The position numbers were made by a program, and so were the translations under genes. From Mycobacterium gallinarum (GTDB lineage: Bacteria; Actinomycetota; Actinomycetes; Mycobacteriales; Mycobacteriaceae), in NCBI RefSeq assembly GCF_010726765.1, contig NZ_AP022601.1, positions 6,026,008-6,090,007 on the forward strand: 64,000 bases of DNA. Direction: 5' to 3'. Below are positions 46,396 to 64,000 of the stretch, piece after piece. The stretch's first letter is position 1; every line of letters starts with the position of its first letter. Under the pieces are notes generated by a model, which made no database searches, was not told the origin of the DNA, and was given only the letters and a program-made list of their open reading frames with translations.

Positions 46396-46640
46396 TGACT
46401 CGCCTCCAACGTCCCGCCTCCGCAACACAAGTGAAACGCTCGCGCCCACCCAGCTGTTCCAAGAGGCGCAAGGGCGCGAATATAGCCGAACAAATTGCCG
46501 CACAAGGACTTAATGGCTCCTCGAATGCTCGTGGTTTGACCAGTCGTTGTCGATTGACCCAGGTAATATCCACTGCTATTTTACAGAACAAAGCTCTGTT
46601 TAGCAGAAACAGCCCGTCAGATATTTGAACCAGGATTCCC
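46396..46640. other. Non-coding gap between integrase and decayed ferredoxin
   Basis: No gene is seen here. From about 46550 the DNA is clearly more AT-rich than its surroundings. It contains the near-perfect 14-base palindrome AACAaAGCTcTGTT at 46587-46600, a possible operator for the rightward catabolic genes or a remnant of one. Confidence 0.5.
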
Positions 46641-46850
46641 GTGATCAAGATCCATGCAGACCAGGAACGGCGCGAGGGATACTTTGTCGCTGCGCCGGAT
46701 GTGTTTGATTTGGACGATGATGGCATCGTCATGTTGCTACGCGATGAGATCGAGAGCTCCGAGCGTGAGCATGTCGATGAGTCCGCGCGCAGCTATCCGG
46801 TCGCAGCGCTTCGCACTCGAGCAGATGTCCGCGGCCGACCACTAGCACGT
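46641..46850 (+). pseudogene. Degenerate [3Fe-4S]/[4Fe-4S]-type ferredoxin
   Basis: From GTG 46641 the frame reads like a P450-type single-cluster ferredoxin (IKIHADQER, then AAPDVFDLDDDG, then VDESARS-PVAALR) but every cluster cysteine is gone. The first is Arg (ERREGY), the second region is shortened to EGYFVAAP, and the C-P motif reads Y-P (ARSYPVAAL). The normal end near VAALR is lost and the frame runs on for about 70 unrelated residues to 47045. It cannot hold a cluster as written. Its upstream position suggests it once served an oxygenase of this island. Confidence 0.8.
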
Positions 46851-47037
46851 CTCGAAAACACCGCGCAGACAGAGAAGCTGATGAAATATGCGACCTGCGC
46901 GCGGCAGGGCATGAGTGGCAATGAAGACAGGGCCCTGTTCGCAGATGCGGTTGTCCTCGGTAACGGACGCCACGCATCTAGCTCGGCGCACCTCACTGAT
47001 GCCGACCCCTCCCGTCGTTCGCCTTTGATCCGCTGCC

Positions 47038-47781
47038 GTGGCTGACCGGGACCCGTTCGACGTGGCCGGCACCGTCATCGTGGTAACCGGCGGCGCTAGT
47101 GGCATAGGCGATGAAGTGGTTGCAGATCTCGTGGACGCTGGCGCCAACGTGGTGGTTGCCGACCTCGCGCCACCGCCCTGGCGGCCGACGGTGATCTATC
47201 ACCGTCTCGACGTCACCGACGAAGACGGCCTGGCTGGACTCGTCAAAGACACCGTGGAGCGCTTCGGCCAGATAGACGGCTTGGTCAATTGCGCTGCGAT
47301 GTATAGGGCGCTTGGGGCCAAGAAGACCTTGGAAGAGTTGACCATCCAAGAATGGGACGACGTTCTACGCATCAATGTGCGGGGTACGTGGCAAGCGATG
47401 AAAGCCATTTTGCCGGCGGTGCCAGTGCGGGGCGGTCGCATTGTGAACGTGTCCTCGACGACTGCGCGGACGGGAACACTCGGTTTTCCGCACTACGTCG
47501 CCTCCAAGGCTGCGGTCGAGGGCCTCACCCGCGCTGCAGCCCGAGAGCTGGGCGCGCGCGGAATCACCGTCAACGCAGTCGCCCCAGGGCTCGTGGACGA
47601 CGAGGCCACAAACGAACTCAACGATCCCATCTACGTCGCGCAGGCGGTCAACCGTCGGTCGATCAAGCGGACGCTTTCACCCGGGGATGTCGCGTCCGTG
47701 GTGCGATTTCTGTGCAGCGGCGGCAGCGGGTTCATCACCGGTCAAGTCCTGATCGTCGATGGCGGGGGGGTATTTGTTTAA
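47038..47781 (+). CDS. Short-chain dehydrogenase/reductase
   Basis: This 247-residue classical SDR has the NAD(P) motif TGGASGIGDEV, NCAAMYR in place of the NNAG motif, the active-site Ser in VNVSSTTAR and YVASKAAVEG (YxxxK), and a C-terminal GQVLIVDGGGVFV. GTG start. It is the first intact enzyme gene of the island and may act as a cis-dihydrodiol or alcohol dehydrogenase together with the Rieske oxygenase 0.3 kb downstream. Confidence 0.93.
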   Translation: MADRDPFDVAGTVIVVTGGASGIGDEVVADLVDAGANVVVADLAPPPWRPTVIYHRLDVTDEDGLAGLVKDTVERFGQIDGLVNCAAMYRALGAKKTLEELTIQEWDDVLRINVRGTWQAMKAILPAVPVRGGRIVNVSSTTARTGTLGFPHYVASKAAVEGLTRAAARELGARGITVNAVAPGLVDDEATNELNDPIYVAQAVNRRSIKRTLSPGDVASVVRFLCSGGSGFITGQVLIVDGGGVFV

Positions 47782-47991
47782 GCTCCGCCGTACCGTGAGC
47801 TCTTGACTAAGTGAGTCGCCGGCGATGATCCCTCCACGGCGCAAGTCTGCGCTCACCCACACCGCCGACGGCAAATTCAGGTCCGGGCGTCTTTGGCGGC
47901 CCGTCGCGGGACGACCCGCGCACCATCGGCGTGAGGCTCGACCAACGTCCATGATTTCGAGCCGAGCTTGGCGTCTGGTTGCTCCCGAATG

Positions 47992-48012
47992 CCTAATGGT
48001 ATTACAATTAGG
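47992..48012. promoter_or_regulatory. Near-perfect 21-base palindrome, GntR/FadR-type operator
   Basis: CCTAAT-N-GTA-N-TAC-N-ATTAGG is symmetric at 18 of 20 paired positions and contains the GT-N3-AC core expected for FadR-subfamily GntR regulators. It lies 57 bases upstream of the chosen Rieske start. The FCD-type GntR gene at 51539-52285 in the same island is the natural candidate binder. Confidence 0.65.
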
Positions 48013-48068
48013 ACAGTGTGATCGGGGCGTCACCGCCGGATGGTGGGAGAGAACTAGCTGAGGTAACG

Positions 48069-49355
48069 GTGCTACGCGCAGAGATCAACGAGCTTTTGAC
48101 GAGGACCGGGCCGGGGACGCCGATGGGTGAGTTGTTCCGCCAGTACTGGATTCCAGCCTTGCTCGCCGAGGAGCTGCCGGAGGATGATTGCCCACCGGTA
48201 CGCGTGAAGCTGCTGAACGAGCGAATGATCGCTTTTCGTGACAGTCACGGCAACTTCGGCCTGATCGACGAGTTCTGCGCGCACCGTGGCGCCTCACTGT
48301 GGTTTGGCCGCAACGAAGAGGGCGGTCTTCGATGTCCCTACCATGGCTGGAAGTACGACGTCACGGGACAAGCCGTCGAGGTGCCGTCCGAACCTGTGGG
48401 GTCCACCTTTTGTGCGCACGTCAAACTGACGTCCTACCCGCTGGTCAAGATCGGGGACGTGCTGTGGACCTACATGGGCGACCCCGCGAAGCAGCCGCCG
48501 TTACCGGAATTCGAATTTGCTCTCGTGCCGGCCGATCAGACCTTCACGTCCAAACGATGGCAGGAGTGCAATTGGCTGCAAGCCTTCGAGGGTGGCATCG
48601 ATTCCAGTCATGTGTCGTTCCTGCATTCCGGGGGCCTGAAGTCGGACCCGCTGTTCAAAGGCAGCAAGGCTAACGAGTACAACATGGCGGACCTCAAGCC
48701 GTTCTTCGAGGTCGCGGAGTCCGAGGGTGGTTTGTTCGTTGGTGCCCGCCGCACCGCTGACGCCGACAACTACTACTGGCGCATCACGCCGTGGGTGATG
48801 CCGTGCTTCACGATGGTGCCGCCACGAGGGGATCATCCTGTCCACGGCCACTTTTGGATTCCCATCGACGATGAGAACTGTTGGGCGTACTCGTTTGACT
48901 ATCACCCCGTGAGACCGTTGACTTCGCAGGAAGTTCAGGCGATGAAGGTCGGGCACGGGGTGCACAGTGCCAACATCCCTGGCACGTACCGACCGCAGGC
49001 GAATAAGGACAACGACTATCTGATGGATCGTGCGGCGCAGAAGCGTGGAGACACGTACTCGGGCGTGCGGGGTATCGCGATCCAAGACTCGTCGCTGCAG
49101 GAGAGTATGGGGCCGATCGTCGATCGGACCAAGGAGCGGTTGGTGTCTGCCGACAGTGGCATCATCAAAGCGCGGCAGAAGTTGAAGCGGGCGGCTGAAG
49201 CGTTGCGCGACAAGGGTATGACTCCACCAGGTGTCGACCCAGAGCATCATCGTGTTCGGTCTGCCGCCGTCGTCCTCCCGCGTGACGCATCGTTCAGCGA
49301 GTCGTGCCGAGAAGATCTCAGGGTGCGCGAAGGCGTGCGGCAGACATCGGTATGA
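48069..49355 (+). CDS. Rieske non-heme iron oxygenase, phthalate 4,5-dioxygenase-type
   Basis: This 428-residue oxygenase component (ring hydroxylation or O-demethylation) has Rieske ligands Cys70 and His72 (EFCAHRG) and Cys89 and His92 (RCPYHGW), and mononuclear iron ligands His181 and His186 in FEGGIDSSHVSFLH. The N-terminus ELLTRTGPGTPMGELFRQYW is that of phthalate-4,5-dioxygenase-like enzymes. GTG at 48069 fits the family start and follows a TGAGGT site; a GTG at 48018 would add 17 residues. No dedicated reductase is adjacent; the ferredoxin/reductase pair at 52.8-54.4 kb may supply electrons. Confidence 0.92.
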   Translation: MLRAEINELLTRTGPGTPMGELFRQYWIPALLAEELPEDDCPPVRVKLLNERMIAFRDSHGNFGLIDEFCAHRGASLWFGRNEEGGLRCPYHGWKYDVTGQAVEVPSEPVGSTFCAHVKLTSYPLVKIGDVLWTYMGDPAKQPPLPEFEFALVPADQTFTSKRWQECNWLQAFEGGIDSSHVSFLHSGGLKSDPLFKGSKANEYNMADLKPFFEVAESEGGLFVGARRTADADNYYWRITPWVMPCFTMVPPRGDHPVHGHFWIPIDDENCWAYSFDYHPVRPLTSQEVQAMKVGHGVHSANIPGTYRPQANKDNDYLMDRAAQKRGDTYSGVRGIAIQDSSLQESMGPIVDRTKERLVSADSGIIKARQKLKRAAEALRDKGMTPPGVDPEHHRVRSAAVVLPRDASFSESCREDLRVREGVRQTSV

Positions 49356-49863
49356 CCAGTCCGCTCCAGCCAATTCTCGGTCGTAGTTGTGCGCGGCCGA
49401 CATCTGCTGCCGAGATGAGATATCGGATCAACCGTCCGATCGCCGGGCGGAAGGGCGTGCGCGTCATTGCGCTCGACGGTGGTGCACGAGCGATCATCGA
49501 GCGGGTTTCACCTCAGTCGCGGGCACATGCACGCTTCCTGTCGGTAGCCGAACCGAGAGGGCATGCGGGGGAGCGGCGTTGGGTTTCGCTGCTCGACACC
49601 GACGGCGCCGTCACCACTCTTGCGGAGGAACTTGCCGACGCCGATGTGGTCGTCATGGTCTCCACCACCGGTGGGGATGCCGCTGCAGCAACATCATCAG
49701 TGCGGCGAGCACGGTTCGCGCGATCATGACCGCTGGCGTCGTCGTTGGGGAAGGCGCAGCGGCGAGTGAGACCGTGGCTGTGTTGCGGCCTCACACGCGC
49801 GTACTCGTCGTCAGCGCTCACGAAGAAGACGTTTCCGATCTGCCCTCAGCGCTGCGAGCCTGA
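49352..49863 (+). pseudogene. Unknown protein, apparently frameshifted
   Basis: The gene starts with ATG overlapping the Rieske stop (ATGA) and reads RYRINRPIAGRKGVRVIALD and ADADVVVMVSTTGGDAAAA. After about 49685 protein-like sequence continues in the next frame (NIISAASTVRAIMTAGVVVG, then LVVSAHEEDVSDLPSALRA) to a stop at 49863, 11 bases before the PanB-like gene. One missing base near 49684-49690 would join them into about 170 residues with a Rossmann-like alternation of strands and helices. I do not recognise the family. Confidence 0.7.
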
Positions 49864-49874
49864 AAGGATCCGTC

Positions 49875-50690
49875 GTGGGCACGAACGTTAAACTCACTGA
49901 CCTGCAGGACATGAAACTGCGAGGGCAGAAGATCGTCGGTGTGGTGGCGTGGGACTACCAGATGGCTCGGATAGTCGATCGTGCCGGCGTCGACTTGGTG
50001 TCGGTTGGTGACACTGTGGGAATCAACCTGTGGGGTCAGCCGAGTCCGCTTGAAATCACCATGGATCAGATGGTCGTGGTGTGTCAGGCAGTGCGCCGCG
50101 GTGTCCGGCGCGCCTTGCTGTCCTGTGATTTCCCGTTCGGTCCGCTGCAGGACGGGCGAAAGAGTGCTGTGCGGGCGGCAATTCGTCTCGCCAAGGAAGC
50201 CGGCGTCGACATGGTGAAGCTAGACGGGGCATGCGATCATCTAGATGCCGTGACGGCGGTGGCGCGTGCAGGGATTCCCGTGTTTGCTCAGTTCGGGATC
50301 ACACCGCAGACTTCTCTCAAATACGGTGCGAGGTATAGCGCCACACCGAGCGCCAAGGATGCGGTTTCAGACGAATTTCTCGACGAGATGGTTTGTGAGG
50401 CTCGTCGTCTCGCTGATGCGGGCGCGGTGCTGCTGAACTTCACGAATTCGGGACCCGTCGTTGGAGCGGCAGTGGCCGAGGCGGTGTCCATCCCGGTGCT
50501 CGGTGGATTCGGTGGCGGCCCGTGGCTGGACGGCCGGATCCGGATGGCCACGGCCGCCATCGGTTACAGCGTCGATGGTCTCGACAGCCCACCAGATACC
50601 TATGCCAACGTCGCCCAGATCGCGCTGGACGCCATCACGGCGTATGCAGATGACGTGCGGGCTGCTCGCCAGATCAAGGGAGGTCTTTGA
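49875..50690 (+). CDS. PanB-like (3-methyl-2-oxobutanoate hydroxymethyltransferase family) aldolase
   Basis: This 271-residue TIM barrel of the PEP mutase/PanB superfamily has VSVGDTVGINLWGQ (PanB metal Asp region), LLSCDFPFGPLQ (the ADMPFGSY equivalent) and VKLDGACDHL (VKLEGG equivalent). The PanB GHLGLTPQ loop is changed to AQFGITPQ, losing the His. This divergence and the catabolic context argue against pantothenate synthesis and for an aldolase or lyase acting on a pathway intermediate. GTG start. Confidence 0.85.
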   Translation: MGTNVKLTDLQDMKLRGQKIVGVVAWDYQMARIVDRAGVDLVSVGDTVGINLWGQPSPLEITMDQMVVVCQAVRRGVRRALLSCDFPFGPLQDGRKSAVRAAIRLAKEAGVDMVKLDGACDHLDAVTAVARAGIPVFAQFGITPQTSLKYGARYSATPSAKDAVSDEFLDEMVCEARRLADAGAVLLNFTNSGPVVGAAVAEAVSIPVLGGFGGGPWLDGRIRMATAAIGYSVDGLDSPPDTYANVAQIALDAITAYADDVRAARQIKGGL

Positions 50691-50692
50691 CG

Positions 50693-51553
50693 TTGAGCGT
50701 GGCTTCGGCGAAGATCGATGGCATTGAAACCCGTTATGCGGTAGCGGGTTCGGGGCCGCCGCTGCTGATGTTCTCGCCTGGCGGCTTCGCCGCCTCGATG
50801 GACGCGTGGGAGACGCACGGCCTCTATCGTCGAACGCGGATGCTGTCACAGTTGCAGGAGCGGTTCCAATGCATCACGTTCGACAAGCGTGAGGCCGGTG
50901 AGTCTGGGGGGCGCGTCGAGCGTGTCTCATGGGCTCATTACGTGAGACAGGGTGTCGGCCTGTTGGACCATCTCGGGCTGGGCCGAGTGCATATCATGGG
51001 TGCCTGCGTTGGTTGTTCGATCGCGGCGTGCATCGCGAGCGCTCATCGCGAGCGCGTTGGAGGGATGGTGCTGTATTCGCCGGCCGGCGGCGTACAGTAC
51101 CGGCGAAAGCAGCTCGAACGGTTCCGCGCCCACCTTGCCTACGCCGCGGAGCAGGGGCTGGCCGGTGTTGCCGACCTTGCGGCGACGACCGACGGCAACT
51201 TCACCTCAGACGCCAGACTGGGTCCGTGGGTCAGCGTGTTGCGCTCCGACCCTGATTTCGCCGCGCAGTACCGTGATCTCGGCAGCCTTCAATACCAGAT
51301 CACTGTCGCGGCGATGGCGGCTCTGTTGTTCGACCGTGACACCGTGCCTGGCCCTGAACCCGATGACCTACTGGTATCGGACGTGCCCGCGCTCATCGTG
51401 CCGGGTGAAGATGCATCGCATGCGCCCTCGGCGGCGCGTTATCTACAGGAGTGCCTTCCCATCAACGAGTATTGGGACGTTCCGGTCGCAGCCCAGACCG
51501 CCGAAACTGCGCCGGCGCGGGTCATGAGTTTTCTGGGCTCAGTTGCCCTTTGA
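50693..51553 (+). CDS. Alpha/beta hydrolase with Cys in the nucleophile elbow
   Basis: This protein of about 286 residues has the alpha/beta hydrolase pattern LLMFSPGGFAAS (oxyanion), FDKREAGESGG and an elbow MGACVGC at residues 103-108, so the nucleophile position (G-x-Nuc-x-G) is Cys105, as in dienelactone hydrolases, rather than Ser. A late VPGEDASHAPSA supplies Asp and His candidates. TTG at 50693 has the best spacing to AGGGAGG; TTG 50687 (overlapping the PanB-like stop) and GTG 50699 are alternatives. Tail-to-tail overlap of 15 bases with the GntR gene. Confidence 0.82.
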   Translation: MSVASAKIDGIETRYAVAGSGPPLLMFSPGGFAASMDAWETHGLYRRTRMLSQLQERFQCITFDKREAGESGGRVERVSWAHYVRQGVGLLDHLGLGRVHIMGACVGCSIAACIASAHRERVGGMVLYSPAGGVQYRRKQLERFRAHLAYAAEQGLAGVADLAATTDGNFTSDARLGPWVSVLRSDPDFAAQYRDLGSLQYQITVAAMAALLFDRDTVPGPEPDDLLVSDVPALIVPGEDASHAPSAARYLQECLPINEYWDVPVAAQTAETAPARVMSFLGSVAL

Positions 51554-52285
51554 GACGTGCTTTGCCGTTCGGCCGATATGGGTACGCATCACGGAAGTCG
51601 CTTTGTCAACATCGCGCTTCTTGATCGCCGCCACAAACTGGCGGTGCTCCCGAATGCCTCGGATACCCATCTCCGGGTGTGACTGCTGGACGTGGCGCAT
51701 CGAGAGCAGAGTGGGTCCGTGGAAAGAGTCAGCCAGCATCGCGATTGCCTTGTTATGGCTGGCCTGGGCGACGCGTGTATGGAACTCCGCTGACAGTTCC
51801 ATCGGATAGAAACCTTCTTTCAAAGCCGCGTCGCCCCGGTTGCAGATCTCTGTCAGTTCGTCGATGTCCTGTTCAGTCGCACGCTCGCACACGAGCGGGA
51901 TGATTCCGATCTCGAAAACCTGCCGCGCTTCGGTCACATCTTTGTCGGTCAGGCCCGACAAGCTGAGCAGATCCTCGATGCCTTCACCAATACGCTGGCT
52001 CGTTGGCGCCGTCACAAACGCGCCGCCGTGGGCGCCGACCTTGATGCGCACCATGCCGTTCGCCTCGAGGCCGCGCAGTGCTTCGCGCACCGTAACCCGG
52101 CTCACCCCGAGCTTGTCACCAAGTTCACGTTCGGCAGGCAGGCGGTCGCCCGGCCGCAGCTGACCTTCCCGAATCAACACACGTATCTGGTCGACAATCA
52201 TCGCCGAGGCCCGGCCCGGACTGACCGGGCTGAACATCGAATCAGCCGGCGGTGGCGTCGTCGCGGGACTCTCGGATGCAGGCAT
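51539..52285 (-). CDS. GntR-family regulator with FCD domain (FadR subfamily)
   Basis: This 248-residue regulator has a winged helix with GDRLPAERELGDKLGVSRVT and VREALRGLEANG, then an all-helical FCD ligand domain with metal-site His in AEFHTRVAQASHNK and IREHRQFVAAI. FCD regulators usually sense organic acids from the pathway they control. The ATG of MPASESPATT was preferred to one 45 bases upstream. The palindrome at 47992-48012 is a good candidate target. Confidence 0.9.
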   Translation of the reverse strand: MPASESPATTPPPADSMFSPVSPGRASAMIVDQIRVLIREGQLRPGDRLPAERELGDKLGVSRVTVREALRGLEANGMVRIKVGAHGGAFVTAPTSQRIGEGIEDLLSLSGLTDKDVTEARQVFEIGIIPLVCERATEQDIDELTEICNRGDAALKEGFYPMELSAEFHTRVAQASHNKAIAMLADSFHGPTLLSMRHVQQSHPEMGIRGIREHRQFVAAIKKRDVDKATSVMRTHIGRTAKHVSKGN

Positions 52286-52755: not shown

Positions 52756-53079
52756 ATGCCGAAGGTTGTCTTCATCGCTTTGGACGGTGTGCAGCGCGTG
52801 GTGGACGCGCATCCCGGCGAGTCGGTCATGGCCGCCGCAGTACGCAGCGGCGTCCCCGGCATCGTCGGCGAGTGTGGCGGAAACTGCAGCTGTGCCACCT
52901 GCCACATCTATGTCGACGAAGAGTTCGCTGTGTACGTTGGTGGGCCTGAGGAAATGGAAGAGGACGTGCTCGAACTCGGTGCTGCCGCCGAGCGGCGTGA
53001 GTCCAGCCGATTGTCTTGTCAGATCACGATGATCGAGTCGCTCGACGGCCTGATCGTTCACATCCCTGAGGAGCAGTGA
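52756..53079 (+). CDS. [2Fe-2S] ferredoxin (adrenodoxin/ThcC type)
   Basis: This 107-residue plant/vertebrate-type ferredoxin has cluster ligands Cys40, Cys46, Cys49 and Cys88 (GECGGNCSCATC and LSCQI), with an extra Cys44. The end LIVHIPEEQ is typical of P450-linked ferredoxins. It overlaps the reductase start by 4 bases, and its likely clients are the P450 at 58.6 kb and perhaps the Rieske oxygenase. Confidence 0.95.
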   Translation: MPKVVFIALDGVQRVVDAHPGESVMAAAVRSGVPGIVGECGGNCSCATCHIYVDEEFAVYVGGPEEMEEDVLELGAAAERRESSRLSCQITMIESLDGLIVHIPEEQ

Positions 53080-54356
53080 GGGTGAGCGCAGGGACGTTGA
53101 TCGTCGGTGCCAGTCAAGCAGGAATGCAACTGGCCCTTTCGCTTCGTGAAGCAGGAGAAGGCGGACCAATAACACTAGTGGGCGAGGAGCCGCACGCGCC
53201 GTACCAACGGCCCCCATTGTCGAAGTCCTACTTGCAAGGCGGCATCGGCTTCGAACAGCTACTACTCCGTGCCCCGAAGTATCTGGCCGACCAGGACATT
53301 TCGGTACTCACGGGTGAGCTTGTCAATTGGCTTGAACTCGAGGGCGAGGGGCCGTCAGGAGTCGCCCTTACGGCGTCAGGAGAAACGCTGTGGTTCGACA
53401 AGTTGGCGTTGACTGTTGGCGCCAGTCCGCGACGACTGGCCGTGCCGGGCGCCGATCTCGATGGGGTGATCTATCTCCGGACAGCGAATGACGCCGCGAA
53501 GCTGCGACAGCTCCAGGGCGAAGCAGAATCCGTCGTCGTGGTCGGCGGCGGGTTCATCGGACTCGAAGCCGCGGCGGTTGCGCGTGCCCAAGGTAAAACG
53601 GTGACCGTTGTTGAGGCCGCCGATCGGTTGATGGGGCGAGCCGTGGCACCCGTGGTCTCCGACTTCTACCTCGATGCGCACGCGCGCCGCGGCGTCACCA
53701 TACGTCTGAACGCGGAAGTAATGTCGTTGACCGGGCAGGATGCGCGCGTGCAGTCGGTGGAATTATCAGACGGCAGCAGCCTTCCCGCAGATCTTGTAAT
53801 TATCGGTATCGGAGTCGTGCCACGGACCGAACTGGCGGACCAACTGGATCTTGTTTGTGACGGTGGCATTGTCGTCGACCGCTTCGCACGTACCAGCAAT
53901 CCGAACGTCGTAGCGGCGGGCGATTGCACTGTTCAACCCGATTGGCGTACCGGCAGCGGCAAAGTGCGCTTGGAGTCGGTTCAAAACGCCATAATTCAGG
54001 CCAAAGCGGCTGCCGCGACATTGACGGGCAGGGTGGAGTCAGACCTGCCGGTGCCGCGGTTCTGGTCCGAACAGTTCGATCTCAAGCTTCGTATCGCCGG
54101 CCTGTCGAGGGGACACGACTATTACTTGGTTCGCGGCGCTCCCGAACGTGAGTCATTCTCCGTGCTCTATTACCACGACGACGCTTTGATGGCGGTTGAC
54201 TCCGTCAACGCGCCAGGTGACTACATGGCAGTACAAAAGGTGCTCACCCAAGGATCCACAATCCGGGCCCAGGATGCCCGCGATGTCTCGGTTTCGCTTC
54301 GCGAACTGATCCGTCCCGCACCCGCGGAAGCTAGACGAATACGTCATCGATCTTGA
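53076..54356 (+). CDS. Ferredoxin reductase (FAD, NADH-dependent; P450/oxygenase type)
   Basis: This 426-residue pyridine-nucleotide-disulfide-type flavoprotein has the FAD motif IVGASQAGMQLALSL, the NAD motif VVVGGGFIGLEAAAVA and the second FAD motif NVVAAGDCTVQP. The region PYQRPPLSKSYL is diagnostic of ferredoxin reductases such as ThcD, RhoD and putidaredoxin reductase. GTG start, coupled with the ferredoxin. The 3' end overlaps the convergent decarboxylase-like gene by 26 bases. Confidence 0.95.
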   Translation: MRVSAGTLIVGASQAGMQLALSLREAGEGGPITLVGEEPHAPYQRPPLSKSYLQGGIGFEQLLLRAPKYLADQDISVLTGELVNWLELEGEGPSGVALTASGETLWFDKLALTVGASPRRLAVPGADLDGVIYLRTANDAAKLRQLQGEAESVVVVGGGFIGLEAAAVARAQGKTVTVVEAADRLMGRAVAPVVSDFYLDAHARRGVTIRLNAEVMSLTGQDARVQSVELSDGSSLPADLVIIGIGVVPRTELADQLDLVCDGGIVVDRFARTSNPNVVAAGDCTVQPDWRTGSGKVRLESVQNAIIQAKAAAATLTGRVESDLPVPRFWSEQFDLKLRIAGLSRGHDYYLVRGAPERESFSVLYYHDDALMAVDSVNAPGDYMAVQKVLTQGSTIRAQDARDVSVSLRELIRPAPAEARRIRHRS

Positions 54357-55626: not shown

Positions 55627-56751
55627 TTGGTCGAGCGCGTTCTGGCTGCTGTACGTACGGCGCCGAACACCACAGAGTTGCGGGAGTTGCCCCGGCCGGA
55701 ACTGTCCGATGATTCCGCGCTGCTGAAGGTCGAGGTCGCGGGGATATGCGGCACGGATGTCAAGATGTATTCCAAACCGCCGTTCGACGAGCCGGTGATT
55801 ATGGGCCACGAGAACGTCGGCATCATCGCCGCGGTGGGAAAGAAGTTCACGCGGTTGCACGGTGTGGGCGAAGGCGACCGAATCTTCGTCGAGCATTACG
55901 TTGGTTGCTATCAGTGCGAATGGTGCCGAATCGGCGAGTACCGCCACTGCGAGGCAACGGACTGGCGAACGAACGCCGATGCGCGCAGATACGGTTACAC
56001 CTCAGCCAACAACGCCGGAACGCTGTGGGGTGGCTTCTCCGAATACATGTACTTGCCGTGGAATGCCGTGGTACACAAGGTGCCCGAAAGTGTCGATGCT
56101 GAACTGGCCGGTCTCGTTACTCCCTTGTCGAACGGCATCGAGTGGGCACTGATCGCCGCGGGTGTCGGTTACGCCGACACTGTTCTGATTCAAGGGCCGG
56201 GCCAGCAGGGACTGTCGCAAGTCGTGGCTTGCAAGCAAGCCGGCGCGTCCCAAATCATCGTTACGGGCGCTTCTCGGGACAAAGCTCGCCTGGACCTCGC
56301 GTTGGAGCTCGGTGCAGACGAGGTCATCGACATCGACGCAGAAGCTCCCTACGACCGGATCATGGATCTGACCAACGGGCGCGGCGTCGACTTCGTGCTC
56401 GACTGCACCTCGCGGGCTGGTGTGGAACCGGTGTTGCTCGGTATCGACGCCTTGAAACGCCGTGAGGGCACAATGCTCATCCAGGGGGAACTTGCCGCGT
56501 TCCCTGATTTCCCGGTGAAAAAGCTCACGGAGAAGGCCATCACGATCAGAAGCGCACGCGGCCATAGTTACCGCGCGTGTGAACTTGCACTCAAACAGCT
56601 TGCGTCGCACAGGTTTCCGCTGGAGCGGCTGTCGACGCACAAATTCCCGCTCGATCAGGTCGACAGGGCTATCCGAGCGCTGGCTGGTGACACAGAGGAC
56701 GCCGACGTGATCCACATTTCGCTGATGCCTTGGCTGGGAAGGGAGTCTTGA
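55627..56751 (+). CDS. Zinc-dependent alcohol dehydrogenase
   Basis: This 374-residue medium-chain dehydrogenase has catalytic zinc ligands in [11 protein letters not shown] and GHENVG, structural zinc Cys residues in [15 protein letters not shown], and a cofactor-binding segment [21 protein letters not shown], where GPGQQG replaces the usual GxGxxG. TTG start 6 bases after an AGGA site. It is first of a rightward operon with the LigK- and LigJ-type genes and could oxidise a hydroxymethyl or ring-cleavage hemiacetal intermediate. Confidence 0.9.
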
Positions 56752-56753
56752 CG

Positions 56754-57446
56754 GTGTCTGTCGTCATCCGCAATCCGCCTCGCGCCCATCCCGCGGTGCG
56801 GGATGAACTCGCCCAGTTCGGAGTTGCGACCATTCATGAAGCACAGGGCCGCACCGGGCTGCTCGCTGCGTACATGAGGCCGATCTACACCGGTGCACGG
56901 GTCTGCGGATCGGCGGTGACTGTCAGTGTCCCGTCAGATGACAACTGGATGGTCCATGTGGCGGTGGAGCAGTGTCAGGCAGGCGATGTCTTGGTGATCG
57001 CTCCCGAAGAGCCCTCGGAGTATGGGTATTTCGGTGAACTGCTGGCCACGGCACTCGCGGCCCGGGGTGTCGGTGGTCTGATGATCGACGCCGGATGCCG
57101 GGACGTCGCTGAACTCGCCGCCATGAAGTTCCCGGTCTGGTCAAAATGTGTCTCAGCACAGGGGACGGTTAAAAAACGCCTTGGTTCGGTCAATATTGGG
57201 ATCACGTGCGCCGGCGCATGGGTCGAACCGGGTGACGTCGTGGTCGGCGACGACGACGGTGTCGTCGTCGTCCCCCGCACAGAGGCCGCTGCGGTCGCAG
57301 CGGCCGCCAGGCTGCGCGAGACCAGGGAAGCTGAGAACCGAAAGCGTTACATGCACGGTGAACTTAGCCTGGACGTCAACAACATGCGTGCCGACCTTGC
57401 CTGCGCGGGGTTGCGCTATGTCGACTATGAGGACGCCGTGCGGTGA
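56754..57446 (+). CDS. 4-carboxy-4-hydroxy-2-oxoadipate aldolase/oxaloacetate decarboxylase (LigK/RraA family)
   Basis: This 230-residue RraA-fold aldolase is of the type that splits 4-carboxy-4-hydroxy-2-oxoadipate to pyruvate and oxaloacetate, the final step of protocatechuate 4,5-cleavage and gallate routes. Signatures are [20 protein letters not shown] with GCRDVAEL (Arg and Asp of the active site), [15 protein letters not shown] and [20 protein letters not shown] 56754 has good spacing to GGGAAGGGAG; TTG 56748 overlapping the previous stop is possible. Confidence 0.88.
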
Positions 57447-58498
57447 TCATTGACATCCACGGTCACTACACCACGTCACCGCCGGCGCATCAGGCGTTTC
57501 GTGACCAACAGCTCGCGGCGTTGGAAGATCCCAGCGTGCCCGCGCCGGCAGCGCCGAGGATCGGTGACGACGAGCTCCGAGAGAGCGTCGAGAACAATCA
57601 GCTGCGCGTGCTTCGCGAGCGAGGTGGTGATCTGATGCTGTTCTCGCCGAAAGCTTCCGGGATGGAGCACCATATAGCGGACCAGGCCACCGCCACCGCT
57701 TGGGCCCGTGCGTCCAACGACCTGGTCCACCGTATGGCGCAACTTTATCCCGACGCTTTCGCGCCAGTGGCTCAGTTGCCGCAGACGCCTTGTGGAGACC
57801 TGCGTGCGGTGGTCGACGAGCTACGACGTTGCGTGGATGAACTCGGCTTCGTCGGGTGCAACGTCAACCCGGACCCGACGGCCGGGTACTGGACGACGTC
57901 CCCGATGACGGACGAATACTGGTACCCGCTGTACGAGGCCATGATTGAGTTGGAAGTGCCTGCAATGGTGCATGTTTCGACCTCGTGTAATCCAAACTTC
58001 CACACGCTCGGCGCGCACTACCTCAACGCTGACACGAGCGTTTTCATGCAGTTCGTGCAGTCTGACTTGTTCCAGCGATTTCCGAAGCTGACCTTTGTGA
58101 TCCCGCACGGAGGTGGCGCCGTCCCGTACCACTGGGGCCGTTACCGCGGCTTGGCGGCTCGGCTGGGCAGACCAGACCCAAGCGAACTCCTCGAAAATGT
58201 GTACTTCGACACTTGCGTCTATCACCAGGCTGGAATCGATCTGCTGCACCGGGTGATCGGTCCGGCGAACCTGCTCTTCGCGTCCGAAATGCTCGGCGCG
58301 GTTCGCGGAGTTGACCCGGACACCGGTGTCGCATGGGACGACACGCTGGTCTACATCAACGAACTCGATTTGAGTGAGAGAGAACACCACGCAGTGGTGG
58401 AGGGTAACGCGCGCAGGGTGTATCCCCGGCTGGACCGGCATTTGGCCAGTAAAGATCTCGCCGGCACCGGATCCGCCGTAGCCGACGTCCGCTTCTGA
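57443..58498 (+). CDS. 4-oxalomesaconate hydratase-like amidohydrolase (LigJ type)
   Basis: This 351-residue amidohydrolase-2 family protein starts [19 protein letters not shown], which matches the LigJ N-terminus; metal ligands include HGH, VHVST and [10 protein letters not shown]. LigJ hydrates 4-oxalomesaconate to 4-carboxy-4-hydroxy-2-oxoadipate, the substrate of the LigK-type aldolase encoded immediately upstream, with which it overlaps by 4 bases (GTGA). The pair is good evidence for a 4,5-(meta-)cleavage lower pathway. Confidence 0.87.
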
Positions 58499-58576: not shown

Positions 58577-59788
58577 GTGAGCACGATCCCAGAGTTCGAC
58601 GTCGATATCTTCTCCGACGAGGTGTTGCGTGATCCGTTTCCCACGTACGCCCGCATGCGTGAGCTGGGGCCGGTCGTCCGCCTGACCGCTAATGGCGTGC
58701 TCGCGGTGGCGCGGTATGCCGACGTGCGGGCAGTCCTCATTGACCACACGCGATTCATATCCGGCAAAGGTGTCGGCTTCAACAATCAGTTCAACGAGGT
58801 CCGTAGACATAGCGTCATCGCGTCCGACCCGCCACGCCACGAGATGCTGCGCGGTGTTCTCCAGGATCGTTTGGGGCCTCGCTCAATTCGCAATGTGGAG
58901 CAGATCATTCGGCCCAGAGCTCAATCGCTTGTCGACGAGATGACCAGAAGAGGCTCCTTCGATGCGGTGACCGACTTCAGTCAGGTCTTTCCCGTAGAGG
59001 TCGTCGGAGAGCTGATCGGCCTCCCCGTTGATGCTCGCTCGGAGTTGCTGCGCTGGGCCAGCGGTGCGTTCAACGCCTTTGGGCCGCCAAGTGATCGCAC
59101 CTCCGCAGGCCTGGCCGACATCGCAGAGCAGTTCGAGTACATCCGCACCGTCGCAACGAGGGACCAACTGGCGCCGGGCAGCATGGGTGCCGCGGTATAC
59201 GAAGCGGCCGACGCTGGGATCATCCCCGAGGAGTACTGCCTGCACCTACTTTCGGCGTACCTTACGGCGGGGATGGACACGACCGTCAATGCGCTTGCGG
59301 CGATGGTGTGGCTGCTCGGGACGCATCCTGAGCAGTGGCACGAACTCCGCGGGTTACCCCACCGGGTCAACGCCGTCGTGAATGAGGTGTTGAGGATCGA
59401 AGCACCTGCGCAGCTCTTCTCCCGTGTCGCAGCGGTGGACGCCGAGGTAAGCGGAATTGAGATCGCCGCGGGTGAGCGGGTTGCTGTCATCTATGGAAGC
59501 GGCAATCGCGATGAGCGCCAATATCCGGAGCCAGACAAATTCGACATTCACCGAAACGCCGCGGGTCATCTGACGTTTGGAACCGGTCTTCATGCCTGCG
59601 CGGGTCAGGTGTTGGCCCGGATCGAGCTCCAAGCGGTATTAGAATCGATGATCGAGCGCGTCGAGACGATCACGATTGGCGAGCCCATCCGCAAGCTCAA
59701 CAACGTGTTGCGTGGATTCCGTAGTGTCCCTGCGACTTTCACGCCCGCTGCGGTCAAGAATCCAGTACTTTCCGGAGAATCGGCGTGA
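58577..59788 (+). CDS. Cytochrome P450, CYP199-like
   Basis: This soluble 403-residue P450 has the heme-binding FGTGLHACAGQ with Cys341, the I-helix AYLTAGMDTTVNA and the ExxR motif NEVLRIEAP. The segments SGAFNAFGPPSD and LNNVLRGFRSVPATFTPA recall CYP199A enzymes, which O-demethylate 4-methoxybenzoate and oxidise para-substituted benzoates; assignment to that family is by memory of motifs and needs an identity check. The 2Fe-2S ferredoxin and reductase upstream are its likely partners. GTG start, GTGA overlap with the aldehyde dehydrogenase. Confidence 0.9.
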   Translation: MSTIPEFDVDIFSDEVLRDPFPTYARMRELGPVVRLTANGVLAVARYADVRAVLIDHTRFISGKGVGFNNQFNEVRRHSVIASDPPRHEMLRGVLQDRLGPRSIRNVEQIIRPRAQSLVDEMTRRGSFDAVTDFSQVFPVEVVGELIGLPVDARSELLRWASGAFNAFGPPSDRTSAGLADIAEQFEYIRTVATRDQLAPGSMGAAVYEAADAGIIPEEYCLHLLSAYLTAGMDTTVNALAAMVWLLGTHPEQWHELRGLPHRVNAVVNEVLRIEAPAQLFSRVAAVDAEVSGIEIAAGERVAVIYGSGNRDERQYPEPDKFDIHRNAAGHLTFGTGLHACAGQVLARIELQAVLESMIERVETITIGEPIRKLNNVLRGFRSVPATFTPAAVKNPVLSGESA

Positions 59789-61236
59789 TTGGCAGTCGCC
59801 ACAGCCATATCTATGTCGATGGTGTCTGGCGGACGTCCAATTCCGATGCCTTCATCGACCTCACCGATCCGGCCACCGAGGACTGGGTCGGGAGCGTCCC
59901 AGACGGGAGCCCCGCCGATGTAGCGTCAGCGGCGGTGGCGGCGCACGCCGCGCTGCGGGGGTGGGCCGAAGCGCCATCCAAAGATCGTGCAGCCCTGATC
60001 GCCGCGCTGGCCGACCGTTTCGATGAACGACGCGAGGAGATCGCGCACCTCGTGACGGCCCAGAATGGAGCCGTCATCTCGAGGTCACGTCGTACCAATG
60101 GCACTCGTCCCATAGCTCTCTACCGTCACTATGCCGAGGAAGCCGAATCGTTCGAGCCCGAAGTTGCCAGTGCCGACGGCAATAACATCGTCAGACGTGA
60201 ACCGGTGGGCGTCGTCGGGATCATCATCCCGTGGAATGCGCCCCAGTCACTATTAGCCCACAAGCTGGCTCCGGCTCTCGCCGCAGGGTGCACGGTCGTC
60301 GTGAAACCTGCGCAGGAAACACCTTTGGACTCATTGCTCATCGGGGAGCTCGCTGCGGCAGTCGGATTCCCCCCCGGTGTGATCAACGTCGTCACCGGTG
60401 GCCGCACGACAGGGTCCGCGGTTGTTGACGATCCGAACATAGACATGGTGTCCTTCACGGGTTCCACGGATGCCGGTCGCGTAATCGCCTCGCGTGCAGG
60501 GCATTTGTTGAAGCCGGTCGTAGCGGAGCTGGGTGGGAAGTCGGCGGCGGTGTTGCTCGACGATGCGGACCTCGAGCTCTTCTCCGACAACTTGGTCACC
60601 ACCTGCCTGCCGAATACGGGGCAGGTCTGCTACTCGTGCACGCGTGTCATCGCGCCTCGCGCACGCTTCAGCGATGTACTCGAGGTCGTCACATCATGCT
60701 TGGCCAGTGCTCAGGTGGGTGACCCGCTGGATCCAGGGACAGTCTTCGGTCCGCTTGTCAGCGCGGCGCAGCGTGCACGTGTCGAGGACTACATCGACTC
60801 GGCTCGTGCCGAAGGAGCTCGGGTGACCCTCGGAGGTGGCCGTCCGTCCATTGCGACCGGCTTCTACGTCGAGCCCACGGTGATCGTCGACGTCGACCGT
60901 ACGATGCGCGTGTTCCGCGAAGAGATATTCGGGCCCGTGCTGGTCGTGGTTCCTCATGACGGAGATGAGGACGCGACACGAATGGCCAATGATTCGTCAT
61001 ATGGGCTTGGCGGTGCGGTGTTCAGTCGTGACGTCGAGCGTGCGACGGCAGTGGCGCGCAATATGCACACCGGGCGCATCTCGATTAACGCGCGGAGCCA
61101 CGGTGTCTCCGACCCAGCCGAGGGATACAAAGACAGCGGAGTCGGCGGCTCGCTCGATATCTCCTCCCATCTTCGACTCAAGTCCATTGCCGGGGTGGCC
61201 GACGTCGACCGGCATGCGAAAAGCCCTCGGCAGTAA
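59785..61236 (+). CDS. NAD(P)-dependent aldehyde dehydrogenase
   Basis: This 483-residue aldehyde dehydrogenase has IIPWNAPQSLLAHKLAPALA, the cofactor segment SFTGSTDAGRVI, the general-base Glu in VAELGGKSA and the catalytic Cys282 in NTGQVCYSC. It would oxidise a semialdehyde, an aromatic aldehyde or the formaldehyde-derived product of demethylation. It is translationally coupled to the P450. Confidence 0.92.
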   Translation: MIGSRHSHIYVDGVWRTSNSDAFIDLTDPATEDWVGSVPDGSPADVASAAVAAHAALRGWAEAPSKDRAALIAALADRFDERREEIAHLVTAQNGAVISRSRRTNGTRPIALYRHYAEEAESFEPEVASADGNNIVRREPVGVVGIIIPWNAPQSLLAHKLAPALAAGCTVVVKPAQETPLDSLLIGELAAAVGFPPGVINVVTGGRTTGSAVVDDPNIDMVSFTGSTDAGRVIASRAGHLLKPVVAELGGKSAAVLLDDADLELFSDNLVTTCLPNTGQVCYSCTRVIAPRARFSDVLEVVTSCLASAQVGDPLDPGTVFGPLVSAAQRARVEDYIDSARAEGARVTLGGGRPSIATGFYVEPTVIVDVDRTMRVFREEIFGPVLVVVPHDGDEDATRMANDSSYGLGGAVFSRDVERATAVARNMHTGRISINARSHGVSDPAEGYKDSGVGGSLDISSHLRLKSIAGVADVDRHAKSPRQ

Positions 61237-61245
61237 GAAGGGCTT
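61221..61245 (+). other. Small hairpin across the aldehyde dehydrogenase stop
   Basis: AAGCCCT (61221-61227) and AGGGCTT (61239-61245) form a 7-pair stem over an 11-base loop that includes the stop codon. There is no T-run, so it may stabilise or separate the mRNA segments rather than terminate. Confidence 0.4.
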
Positions 61246-61324
61246 GCCTGGCAACACTTGCGCGAACCCCATCAACCCTGTCCATAACGTCGATGACGTT
61301 GCCGCCAAAAAGGGAAGGTCACAT

Positions 61325-62128
61325 ATGACAACCACAGTTCGCGATATCAGCATCATCCGAGCTGCCGTAGACCGTATCCAAACCGCTTTCGTGACAGGGC
61401 AACCGGCACTACCGGTGCGCACGCTGATCGGCGCGGAGGACATTGATTCGGCGTATGCGGTTCAGCAGGAGCTCAACGCTCGCCGGGTGGCGGCGGGAGG
61501 AGTGGTAATCGGTCGAAAGATCGGCCTGACCGCTCCTTCAGTGCAGCACCAACTCGGCGTCGACCAACCGGATTTCGGTGTCCTATTTGCAGACATGGAC
61601 GCATCCGGCGAGACGCTCGTTCCTTATCGAAAGTTGTTGCAGCCCAAGGTCGAAGCCGAAGTCGCCTTCGTACTCGCGGAAGATATCGACAGAGACGTGT
61701 CAAGCGAAGATCAAATTCGAGGATCGATTCGCTACGCCGTTGCGGCACTGGAGATCGTGGACAGCCGCATAGCGAATTGGGACCTGAGTATCGCTGACAC
61801 CGTGGCGGACAACGCCTCCAGCGGGCTGTTCGTTCTGGGGGAAAACCGGCTCGAAATCGACGAATTCGAGCCCCGGGACGTCGTCATGCGAATGTCGGCC
61901 GATGGCGTTCCGGTATCAGCGGGCTCTGGGGCTGCCTGTCTGGGTGACCCGATCCTTGCATTGATGTGGTTGGCCAGGACAGCTGCTGCGTACGGGCAGC
62001 CACTTCGCGCTGGCCAGATCGTTCTTTCGGGAGCGCTTGGACCCATGGCCGCGGTCAGGCCCGGAGTTCATGTCGAAGCGGAGATCGAGCCTCTGGGATC
62101 GGTTTCCGCCGCGTTCTCAGAGGCATGA
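61325..62128 (+). CDS. 2-oxopent-4-enoate hydratase family (MhpD-like)
   Basis: This 267-residue member of the fumarylacetoacetase-like hydratase/decarboxylase family has VIGRKIGLTAPSVQHQLGVD and PDFGVLFADM, metal Glu residues in KVEAEVAFVLAEDI and ALEIVDSRIANWD, and VLSGALGPMAAVRPG. It would hydrate 2-oxopent-4-enoate (or decarboxylate 4-oxalocrotonate) in a catechol meta-cleavage lower pathway. The gene that normally follows, an acylating acetaldehyde dehydrogenase, is present only as a remnant. Confidence 0.92.
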   Translation: MTTTVRDISIIRAAVDRIQTAFVTGQPALPVRTLIGAEDIDSAYAVQQELNARRVAAGGVVIGRKIGLTAPSVQHQLGVDQPDFGVLFADMDASGETLVPYRKLLQPKVEAEVAFVLAEDIDRDVSSEDQIRGSIRYAVAALEIVDSRIANWDLSIADTVADNASSGLFVLGENRLEIDEFEPRDVVMRMSADGVPVSAGSGAACLGDPILALMWLARTAAAYGQPLRAGQIVLSGALGPMAAVRPGVHVEAEIEPLGSVSAAFSEA

Positions 62129-62352
62129 TGGCAATGACGAAAGTCGCCATCATCGGTTCGGGGAACCTGGCACCGACCTACTGCAGAACATCATGCGCAT
62201 TACCGCGGTACTGGACGTCGCCGGGATGGTGGGCATAGATCCCGCTAGCCGGCGTCGCAAGGGGGAGATGTCGGTTTCCAATAACTCGTGAGGGGCTACA
62301 GGGCCAGATTGCGATGTCTCATTTCGACGAGATCGACATCGTGCTATAGAGA
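62125..62352 (+). pseudogene. Acylating acetaldehyde dehydrogenase (MhpF-like), decayed fragment
   Basis: The start MTKVAIIGSGN overlaps the hydratase stop. The homology then continues in another frame (GTDLLQNIMRITAVLDVAGM, then VGIDPAS) and, after further frame changes, as EGLQGQIAMSHFDEIDIVL just before a stop at about 62350. Together these match the first roughly 80 residues of MhpF/DmpF-type enzymes; the remaining 230 residues and the partner aldolase gene are absent. Confidence 0.85.
62312..62341. other. CGATGTC-N16-GACATCG inverted repeat
   Basis: A 7-base perfect inverted repeat inside the decayed dehydrogenase, at the convergence point with the leftward SnoaL-like gene. It may now act as a weak terminator. 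Confidence 0.3.
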
Positions 62353-62414
62353 AGCGAGGTTTGATCGTGCGCCTCGGCGTCGGTGGACGTCTACCGCCTT
62401 CGTCGCTGTAGCGC

Positions 62415-62918
62415 TTATTCGTCGAACCCTTCATCTGGGATGGCAAACACCGCCCGTGCGTTTTCGTTGAGATTGGCGAATCCATCGATAATCACCTGCT
62501 TCACGCGCATCTCGTTGTCAGCTATGCGAATCAGCCACGTGCGAAAGGCCGACCCGGTGAATTCTTCGCTGGCCAACGAGGGTGCTTTCCAGCGTCGAAA
62601 GTAGAACTCAAGATGGGTCGTCAGCTCGACCACACCCTCCTTCGCCGGGATATAGGAAAGTACGTGGCGCAGTTCCAGGCGTTCGTCGAAGATCCCGGCC
62701 CGTTGATCAAGGTACGTCTGCAGACCATCGCGGCCTTTCCACTGGTAACCACCACGAAAACCGATCTGAAAGTCGTCGGTGAGAACCGCCGCGAACATCG
62801 GTTCGGCATTCCGTTGCTTCTCCATGTTTAGGAACGCGTCGAGGGTGGCAATGTAGCCTGGCAAATCTGGGGCGCCGCTGGGCATTTCACTGTTGGCTTT
62901 CACTTTTTTGGACGTCAT
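62415..62918 (-). CDS. SnoaL/NTF2-like protein
   Basis: This 167-residue NTF2-fold protein (AGIFDERLELRHVLSYIP, then VELTTHLEFYFRRWKAPSL, then RVKQVIIDGFANLNENARAV) could be an isomerase, dehydratase or small ring-hydroxylating-like beta subunit. No catalytic residues can be named. Its ATG overlaps the IclR stop by one base (TGATG), so it is cotranscribed with the regulator. Confidence 0.8.
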   Translation of the reverse strand: MTSKKVKANSEMPSGAPDLPGYIATLDAFLNMEKQRNAEPMFAAVLTDDFQIGFRGGYQWKGRDGLQTYLDQRAGIFDERLELRHVLSYIPAKEGVVELTTHLEFYFRRWKAPSLASEEFTGSAFRTWLIRIADNEMRVKQVIIDGFANLNENARAVFAIPDEGFDE

Positions 62919-63718
62919 CAGCCGAGATTGCGAGCTAGCTCGGCGGCGGCGTCTGTTAGGGCAGTGCGCGCTTTGCGGATATCCGAGGGCCGGAATCGAT
63001 AACTGGGCGCTGACGCATTCAGTGCCAGCCTCATCTGGGAACCTCCTACGGGTACGGCCACGGCAACGGACGCGACGCCTTCCTCACTTTCCTGGTTGCT
63101 GGTCGCAAACCCACTCTTTCTGACCTCTGCCAATTGAGCGCGCAGTTCGGTAAGGGTACGCACGGAATGCTCGGTGAGTGGCTCCAAATGTGGGTCGGGA
63201 TACAACTGGTCAAGCTCGTCATCGGATAGTCCGGCGAGTAGGACTTTACCTGTCGACGTGCAATGTGCAGGACGTGTAGTACCCAAACGCGATATCACTC
63301 GAACAGCAGAAGGGCTTTCGAGTGCCGCGATGAAGCGAACGAGTCTGCCGTCCAACGTTCCTACGTGCACGGTTTCTTGCAACGTCTCCGCGAGGTGGCG
63401 CAGAATCGGCGCGGCGGTGCGCGGTATGTCCATCCTGGAGTGCACAGCGAACGCCACGTTCGTCAAGGACGGTCCGGGCTGGTATGCCCTGGTGATCGGA
63501 TCTTGGCGGACAAACCCGCGGTACTGAAGCATGGATAACAGGCGATGCGCGGTCGACGAAGCGACCTGCAGGTACTCGCTGGCGTCAGTGAGCCGGATCT
63601 CAGAGCGGTCTCCCAGGAGGAGGATTAGGCGAAGAGCATTGTCGACAGACTCGATCGGATATTGCGGGAGCTTTCCGGTGCTGTCATGCTCCATGCCCGC
63701 GACAGGAGGTTTCTGCAT
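62918..63718 (-). CDS. IclR-family transcriptional regulator
   Basis: This 266-residue regulator has an N-terminal winged helix (ESVDNALRLILLLGDRSEIR, then LQVASSTAHRLLSMLQYRGF) and a C-terminal IclR effector domain (RPAHCTSTGKVLLAGLSDDE, then GVASVAVAVPVGGSQMRLAL). ATG at 63718 gives a normal length; the frame is open a further 78 codons upstream without homology. IclR proteins commonly activate aromatic catabolism operons, so this is probably the second controller of the island. Confidence 0.88.
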   Translation of the reverse strand: MQKPPVAGMEHDSTGKLPQYPIESVDNALRLILLLGDRSEIRLTDASEYLQVASSTAHRLLSMLQYRGFVRQDPITRAYQPGPSLTNVAFAVHSRMDIPRTAAPILRHLAETLQETVHVGTLDGRLVRFIAALESPSAVRVISRLGTTRPAHCTSTGKVLLAGLSDDELDQLYPDPHLEPLTEHSVRTLTELRAQLAEVRKSGFATSNQESEEGVASVAVAVPVGGSQMRLALNASAPSYRFRPSDIRKARTALTDAAAELARNLG

Positions 63719-64000
63719 GACAGAGACCTTACCGCGGTGAAAGCCGAATGCAGCTCGAAGAATCGTGACGCTCAGGCATCGGCGGCGAAATGTCGCCTGA
63801 CCGAACAACATCTGGCACCGCCGTCGGCCCGGGCGGTCCGCAGACTTGCTTCCCGCGGCGTCGTCGTCGGTGACCAGTCCAATCCGTAGGCGGCGCAAAA
63901 TCTCCGACGAAATCTGCTCGGCCAGTACCGCTGACAGCTGCTGGCATCCCACGCATGCCTGCCCGTGCGCAGCAGTACCGGGCCGGTCGTTTTCGTTACG
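63719..64000. other. Upstream of IclR gene to window end, no gene recognised
   Basis: These 282 bases have open frames on both strands but none with recognisable protein features. They should include the IclR promoter. A following gene may begin beyond base 64000. Confidence 0.4.

Follow-up and report, generated by a model that had tools for sequence, protein, structure and literature searches.

An aromatic-acid gene cassette with an isophthalate-dioxygenase-like Rieske oxygenase beside ssrA in Mycobacterium gallinarum

The window analysed here is a stretch of 64,000 nucleotides from Mycobacterium gallinarum, whose 6.3-Mb genome is assembled in two contigs. The window makes up the final 64 kb of contig C1 (6,090,007 bases) and runs to the contig end. 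Beside the transfer-messenger RNA (tmRNA) gene ssrA it carries a cassette of catabolic genes that occupies the initial ~17.6 kb of a larger genomic island at this site. A preliminary description of the window had placed an accessory aromatic-acid catabolic module at this site, and both the gene set and the position of ssrA (44677-45044) bear this out. The gene set is a real, conserved and mobile aromatic-acid module, and its Rieske oxygenase belongs to the isophthalate-dioxygenase branch, with an arginine where the isophthalate enzymes carry a phenylalanine in the substrate site. We tentatively read the cassette as a mobile, modified copy of a widespread, uncharacterised aromatic-polycarboxylate cluster at the end of an island for the catabolism of polycyclic aromatic hydrocarbons (PAHs), with benzene-1,2,4- or benzene-1,2,3-tricarboxylate as the best guesses for its substrate. 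In the open-access literature searched, judged by title or the start of the abstract, no description of the gene set was found.

Gene content

The cassette and its left flank contain the following features (window coordinates, strand, identity).

44677-45044, plus: ssrA (tmRNA), island integration site; ARAGORN; tag ADSNQRDFALAA
45205-46503, minus: tyrosine integrase with one in-frame TGA (46027-46029); Pfam PF00589, PF14657
47038-47781, plus: short-chain dehydrogenase/reductase (SDR)-family dehydrogenase; PF13561
48018-49355, plus: Rieske oxygenase, isophthalate-dioxygenase branch, Arg at isophthalate dioxygenase position 249; PF00355/PF19301; 9INA 457 bits, 49% identity
49352-49863, plus: orphan gene of ~165 amino acids (aa), frameshifted near 49675-49690; its start overlaps the Rieske stop
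49875-50690, plus: PanB-like enzyme (ketopantoate hydroxymethyltransferase fold) without the canonical Glu base and His; PF02548
50687-51553, plus: alpha/beta hydrolase, nucleophile elbow G-x-C-x-G; PF00561
51539-52330, minus: GntR/FCD regulator; PF07729, PF00392
52756-53079, plus: ferredoxin, putidaredoxin-type by eye; open frame, coding score and a homologue upstream of the Rieske gene in relatives
53076-54356, plus: ferredoxin reductase; PF07992, PF14759
54331-55308, minus: Pht5-like (4,5-dihydroxyphthalate decarboxylase family) protein; PDB 9jp7 108 bits, NMT1 22 bits
55627-56751, plus: Zn-dependent medium-chain alcohol dehydrogenase (Zn-ADH); PF08240, PF00107; PDB match
56730-57446, plus: LigK, 4-carboxy-4-hydroxy-2-oxoadipate aldolase; TIGR02798 323 bits, cut-off 304.5
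57443-58498, plus: LigJ, 4-oxalomesaconate hydratase homologue (Amidohydro_2); 457 bits, 57% identity to 6dxq
58577-59788, plus: cytochrome P450, CYP199-like; 282 bits, 36% identity to CYP199A4 over the part compared
59785-61236, plus: aldehyde dehydrogenase (ALDH); PF00171
61325-62128, plus: MhpD-like 2-keto-4-pentenoate hydratase; PRK11342 277 bits, below its cut-off of 350
62415-62918, minus: 167-aa protein kept in the cassette of relatives; no Pfam or NCBIfam match at E 0.001
62918-63718, minus (other start 63811, open frame to 63952): IclR regulator; PF01614, PF09339

Most of the gene calls of the preliminary description stand, including the ADH, ALDH, MhpD-like hydratase, P450, GntR and IclR regulators, the PanB-like fold (PF02548) and the Cys in the nucleophile elbow of the alpha/beta hydrolase. 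The Pht5-like decarboxylase gene is likewise present, with its strand corrected to minus. Four genes had been omitted, namely those for the SDR, the frameshifted orphan, the 167-aa protein and the integrase; the extent given, 46396..63952, starts inside the integrase, and the island continues past the window.

The Rieske oxygenase

The protein described as a phthalate-4,5-dioxygenase-type Rieske enzyme is a Rieske oxygenase (PF00355 and PF19301), but its match to isophthalate dioxygenase (456.9 bits) is better than that to phthalate 4,5-dioxygenase (326.5 bits). Its best solved relative is 9INA, with 203 of 412 aligned positions identical; this is the isophthalate dioxygenase (IPDO) of Comamonas testosteroni KF1 (PMC12445078). 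Both carboxylate anchors are present, Arg255 and His278 being the counterparts of IPDO Arg234 and His257, and the R234A and H257F variants of IPDO are reported to lose all activity (PMC12445078). IPDO Phe249 is not kept. This residue is described as restricting the ortho side of the site, and a V178A/F249H variant also accepts phthalate and terephthalate (PMC12445078). Here the position holds Arg (Arg270), as it does in all 27 sequences of the clade (23 sequences and four added to them; local support 0.971), against Phe in 7/7 IPDO/iph-type sequences compared and Ala in one distant outgroup. For the plasmid-borne relatives, 13 of 34 records with a Rieske match were fetched, and the alignment took the best Rieske of each locus; L195, L196 and L201 contain a second match. 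LigJ lies in the neighbourhood of 25 of the 27 Arg249 sequences. On two Caballeronia plasmids (L195, L196) the Arg249-type Rieske gene is followed by a Zn-dehydrogenase with 43% identity to the ADH of the window. From the position of the residue, Arg249 may bind an additional acidic group of the substrate, which would then be trimellitate- or hemimellitate-like.

A conserved core

The preliminary description had seen an unusual mixture of enzymes outside the textbook pathways. No complete textbook pathway is indeed seen in the cassette, but the mixture is not random. Judged by sequence, there is a core of Rieske oxygenase, ~165-aa orphan, PanB-like enzyme, Cys-hydrolase, Pht5-like protein, Zn-dehydrogenase, LigK, LigJ, ferredoxin and reductase, which recurs across soil actinobacteria (in order or content in Streptomyces, Actinacidiphila, Arthrobacter, Mycetocola and other mycobacteria) without the P450, and partly in rhizobia. 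Conservation counts are from tblastn; open reading frame calling missed some genes (for example, LigJ in G144 and G153). We kept 80 of 460 LigJ stretches, searched all of L031-L125 and used 30 and 22 stretches in two clusterings. Where names of orthologues were seen they are generic ('aromatic ring-hydroxylating dioxygenase subunit alpha', 'RraA family protein', '3-methyl-2-oxobutanoate hydroxymethyltransferase') and assign none of them to a known pathway.

Within the genus, 16 of 297 genomes have LigJ relatives (E 1e-30 or better): seven, this one included, carry the cassette with P450, eight carry the core without it, and the last has only a distant LigJ, on a 9-kb contig. The search for the same gene order, proposed in the preliminary description, also found the P450 cassette in M. 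lehmannii and M. tusciae, which makes nine genomes including this one. Differences between cassettes are small (no MhpD-like match in G011 and G096), and M. frederiksbergense LB501T carries one P450-cassette copy on a plasmid. Of the eight mycobacteria with the P450-less core, seven have the ferredoxin and reductase beside the Pht5-like, ADH, LigK and LigJ genes, and in six of those seven the PanB-like gene lies 18-20 kb off on the same contig with a shared gene set between (in G070 it is on a separate short contig). One mycobacterial genome (G245; L141, L039) and five more have a cluster of ~27 kb around the same core, whose members include RpiB-like and EutA-like proteins, cupins, a class II aldolase, a hydroxyacid dehydrogenase and an ABC importer. 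One cupin resembles gentisate dioxygenase, with 55.7 bits to TIGR02272, far below its cut-off.

All eight Streptomyces, Actinacidiphila, Arthrobacter and Mycetocola loci that have the Rieske gene carry the ferredoxin gene directly upstream of it, and no P450 homologue was found in the fetched stretches of these loci. The preliminary description had given the ferredoxin and reductase to the P450 as its own; both occur in P450-less relatives and, because the core recurs without the P450, they belong to the Rieske system. Four rhizobial plasmids carry the Rieske, orphan, hydrolase, ADH and LigJ genes and an RraA-type protein (26-30% to LigK), with Pht5-like matches in the stretch; the PanB-like gene was not found in these four stretches.

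The orphan usually accompanies related gene sets (for example at L048:1918-2397, L126:11323-11844 and L128:12519-13025). A predicted model of an intact relative, the L048 copy, has moderate confidence and is closest to FtsZ, with close non-FtsZ matches as well, and the GTP-binding signature of FtsZ is found in none of 19 distinct orphan sequences.

Other cassette enzymes

By sequence, LigK and LigJ are genuine, as the preliminary description had proposed. LigK scores above the cut-offs of TIGR02798 (323.1 versus 304.5) and NF006731 (334.8 versus 179), and residues 1-337 of LigJ match solved LigJ at 57% identity over 336 positions (457 bits), from which hydratase activity is predicted.

The PanB-like enzyme passes the broad Pfam model PF02548 and falls below both NCBIfam cut-offs (183.2 versus 272; 149.3 versus 207.55). 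It is 29% identical to the canonical PanB encoded elsewhere in this genome. Asp45, Asp84 and Lys112 are kept, and Glu181, His136 and Glu114 are replaced by Thr, Gln and Asp in 16/16 sequences; the numbers follow Escherichia coli PanB, in which Glu181 and His136 are catalytic. The elbow Cys of the hydrolase is present in 16/16 aligned sequences. Most of the Pht5-like protein (residues 62-324) matches 9jp7 with 108 bits, and decarboxylase activity is predicted for it.

Over about 306 aligned residues, less than its whole length, the P450 shares 36% identity with CYP199A4. Under the CYP nomenclature a family requires at least 40% identity, and the P450 is below this threshold for CYP199.

Genomic island

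A run of 25 bases from the ssrA 3' end recurs in the same orientation at C1:63560-63584, which is 63.6 kb in from the opposite contig end (60 of 70 bases identical over a longer match). This gives the direct repeat of an integration site at the far end of the island, on the assumption that the two contig ends face each other. PAH-type genes lie within C1:1-63,631. Of the 43 genes called from C1:723 to the second ssrA copy, 39 were searched against Pfam; they include six Rieske alpha and four beta subunits, two BphC-type extradiol dioxygenases, one LigB-type protein, two dihydrodipicolinate synthase (DHDPS)-type proteins, two aldehyde dehydrogenases, a CoA-transferase, a thiolase, two MlaE permeases and five Mce-type proteins. 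This gene content makes the remainder of the island resemble the PAH-catabolic islands of mycobacteria, and 11.8 kb of it is 89% identical to a plasmid of Mycolicibacterium rufum, which is described as a PAH degrader. At C1:45815-49886 genes for Rieske alpha and beta subunits, a Gfo/Idh/MocA dehydrogenase and a LigB-family protein adjoin, in the same arrangement as on the M. rufum plasmid.

The integrase lies between ssrA and the cassette and, with its in-frame stop, is probably non-functional as assembled; its homologues are stop-free over the whole length in L191 and L192 and over residues 1-326 in L032, and have one stop in L189. M. neglectum (G169) has the first half of the cassette, with the integrase, next to ssrA at 95.6% identity. 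In G213 and G220 the fetched stretches next to the integrase yielded no tmRNA gene, so the ssrA position is established for two genomes only. M. novocastrense (G220) has the cassette on the same contig as the first 1.1 kb of the C1 part, with 6.8 kb between them. The contig end does not close into a clean circle. The junction of window position 64000 with C1:1 coincides with a 6.8-kb stretch of M. novocastrense (L190:11319-18146) that is not in this genome at high identity, which would be either a gap or a deletion.

In a comparison aimed at an empty site, none of the 29 other loci had the right-flank proteins within 1.5 kb of ssrA; the 892-aa right-flank protein was found, at a distance from ssrA, in 8/8 genomes searched (best match 46-83%). 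The 3' end of ssrA is present a second time, as a partial copy, in G006, G023, G028 and G035; this copy is on the same contig in G006 (0.7 kb away) and G028 (31 kb). In this genus ssrA may be a frequent island site.

Discussion

From the gene set, the conserved core, the place at ssrA and the residues of the substrate site we infer a route in which the reductase and ferredoxin would feed the Rieske oxygenase, which would dihydroxylate the ring with two meta carboxylates held at Arg255 and His278 and a further acidic group at Arg270 (IPDO position 249). Either the Zn-ADH or the SDR would act as the dehydrogenase that rearomatises the diol, releasing one CO2; by analogy with 4,5-dihydroxyphthalate, a second carboxyl would be removed by the Pht5-like protein. 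After ring opening, the Cys-hydrolase, LigJ and LigK could turn the tricarboxylic product into pyruvate and an oxo-acid. No ring-cleavage step was found for the cassette; the gentisate-like cupins of the wider cluster are candidates in other mycobacteria. The P450, ALDH and MhpD-like hydratase would be an island-specific addition that feeds in a further substituted aromatic acid. There is reasonable support for the entry enzyme and the general class of the pathway, but not for the exact substrate or the ring cleavage.

On paper, an enzyme that attacks as IPDO does, at the carboxylated carbon 3 and the adjacent carbon 4, would convert trimellitate to 4,5-dihydroxyphthalate, the substrate type of Pht5, and hemimellitate to 3,4-dihydroxyphthalate. 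Hemimellitate, benzene-1,2,3-tricarboxylic acid, is listed as a fluoranthene metabolite in Mycobacterium sp. KR20 (review PMC2672333). A bolder version, which we hold to be unlikely, would be a widespread benzene-tricarboxylate pathway built on an isophthalate-type Rieske oxygenase that has gained an Arg, usually with an FtsZ-fold partner devoid of the GTP signature; mycobacteria would have transferred this pathway to PAH islands, where it would consume fluoranthene-derived benzene-1,2,3-tricarboxylate.

Several observations weigh against the polycarboxylate reading. One residue is no proof of a substrate, and the 27 sequences are related; position 178 stays Val, although the IPDO variant that admits an ortho carboxylate has V178 altered as well as F249. 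The two Caballeronia loci have Arg249 and no LigJ within 12 kb. The orphan gene between the Rieske and PanB-like genes is broken in this genome, and the Pht5 similarity is modest. No enzyme supplying 4-oxalomesaconate, or more generally the substrate of LigJ and LigK, was found in the cassette, so its genes do not account for the full route. The LigB-family gene of the island best matches the carboxyethylcatechol dioxygenase model, at 75.6 bits versus a 286-bit cut-off. Finally, pcaH, pcaG, pcaB or pcaDC cluster genes lie beside the core in seven clustered loci (L037, L038, L040, L042, L043, L062 and L064; clusters named from L042 and L043), so that LigJ and LigK would not be needed for protocatechuate there.

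The substrate could instead be a natural heteroaromatic or pyrone di- or tricarboxylate, on which the core would act by hydrolysis, hydration and aldol cleavage. The spread of the core through soil actinobacteria and partly rhizobia fits this, as do the conserved mycobacterial RpiB-like, EutA-like, class II aldolase, hydroxyacid dehydrogenase, cupin and ABC importer genes, and no protocatechuate- or gallate-dioxygenase type was found among the conserved genes scanned. However, the Rieske oxygenase and Pht5-like protein are typical of benzene carboxylates, the gentisate-dioxygenase-like cupin may mean that an aromatic ring cleaver is present, and there is no direct evidence for such a compound; we regard this alternative as rather doubtful.

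A plain isophthalate (or phthalate) pathway, in which the Rieske oxygenase, dehydrogenase and Pht5-like protein would yield protocatechuate for 4,5-cleavage, also seems doubtful. The similarity of the Rieske protein to isophthalate dioxygenase and its two anchors argue for it, and LigJ and LigK are the last two enzymes of the protocatechuate 4,5-cleavage route. In the island, the LigB-family gene (C1:48930-49886) adjoins the Gfo/Idh/MocA dehydrogenase gene (C1:47681-48910), and these are the families that also include LigB and LigC. Phthalate, moreover, is described as a hub of PAH metabolism in these bacteria (PMC4342237). Yet position 249 is Arg rather than the Phe of the IPDO/iph-type enzymes, position 198 is Asn and not the phthalate-binding Arg of phthalate dioxygenase, no protocatechuate 4,5-dioxygenase, LigC or LigI was recognised in the cassette, and the LigB-family protein fits another dioxygenase model best, far below its cut-off.

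A methoxylated substrate, suggested in the preliminary description, with the P450 or the Rieske enzyme as O-demethylase, is improbable: CYP199A4 acts on 4-methoxybenzoate and the P450 keeps its Arg92, Ser95 and Phe182/Phe185 pocket, but carries Ser244->Ala and Arg243->Ser and does not occur in the core loci fetched from other than the island lineage, and the Rieske protein, of the isophthalate branch with two carboxylate anchors, best matches isophthalate and phthalate dioxygenases among solved structures, dicamba O-demethylase reaching 65 bits.

If the polycarboxylate reading holds, an aromatic-acid pathway recurs in soil actinobacteria, and partly in rhizobia, under names that are generic where seen. 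The cassette offers a concrete and cheap test case, with one Rieske system and a handful of acids. It could supply an enzyme for benzene-1,2,3-tricarboxylate, for which none is named in the part of PMC2672333 available to us, and an FtsZ-fold neighbour of a dioxygenase, if the prediction is true, would be an unexpected use of that fold.

Among known systems, IPDO (PDB 9INA/9IOY) is the closest to the entry enzyme. All Rieske and Fe ligands, Asp174, Arg234, His257, Gly172 and Val178 are kept, whereas Phe249 is Arg, Ile246 and Ile294 are Val, Phe333 is Ile and Thr175 is Ser; IPDO has one reductase, compared with a ferredoxin plus reductase here. The phthalate pht pathway (Pht3-Pht4-Pht5) likewise combines a Rieske oxygenase, a dehydrogenase and a Pht5-family protein, but here the resemblance to Pht5 is modest, the Rieske oxygenase falls in the isophthalate branch and the dehydrogenases are a Zn-ADH and an SDR. 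With the protocatechuate 4,5-cleavage/gallate pathway the cassette shares a LigK above the equivalog cut-off and a LigJ 57% identical to solved LigJ, without a recognised 4,5-dioxygenase, LigC or LigI. CYP199A4 of Rhodopseudomonas palustris shares Arg92 and Ser95, described as carboxylate-binding, the pocket residues Phe182 and Phe185 (PMC11854964) and also Ala248 with the P450, which differs at 243 and 244 and has no dedicated redox partners beside it. The PAH-catabolic gene clusters of Mycobacterium, reported at about 150 kb (PMC4342237), resemble the island in their several ring-hydroxylating oxygenase genes, whereas here a LigJ/LigK/P450 block is added beside the integrase.

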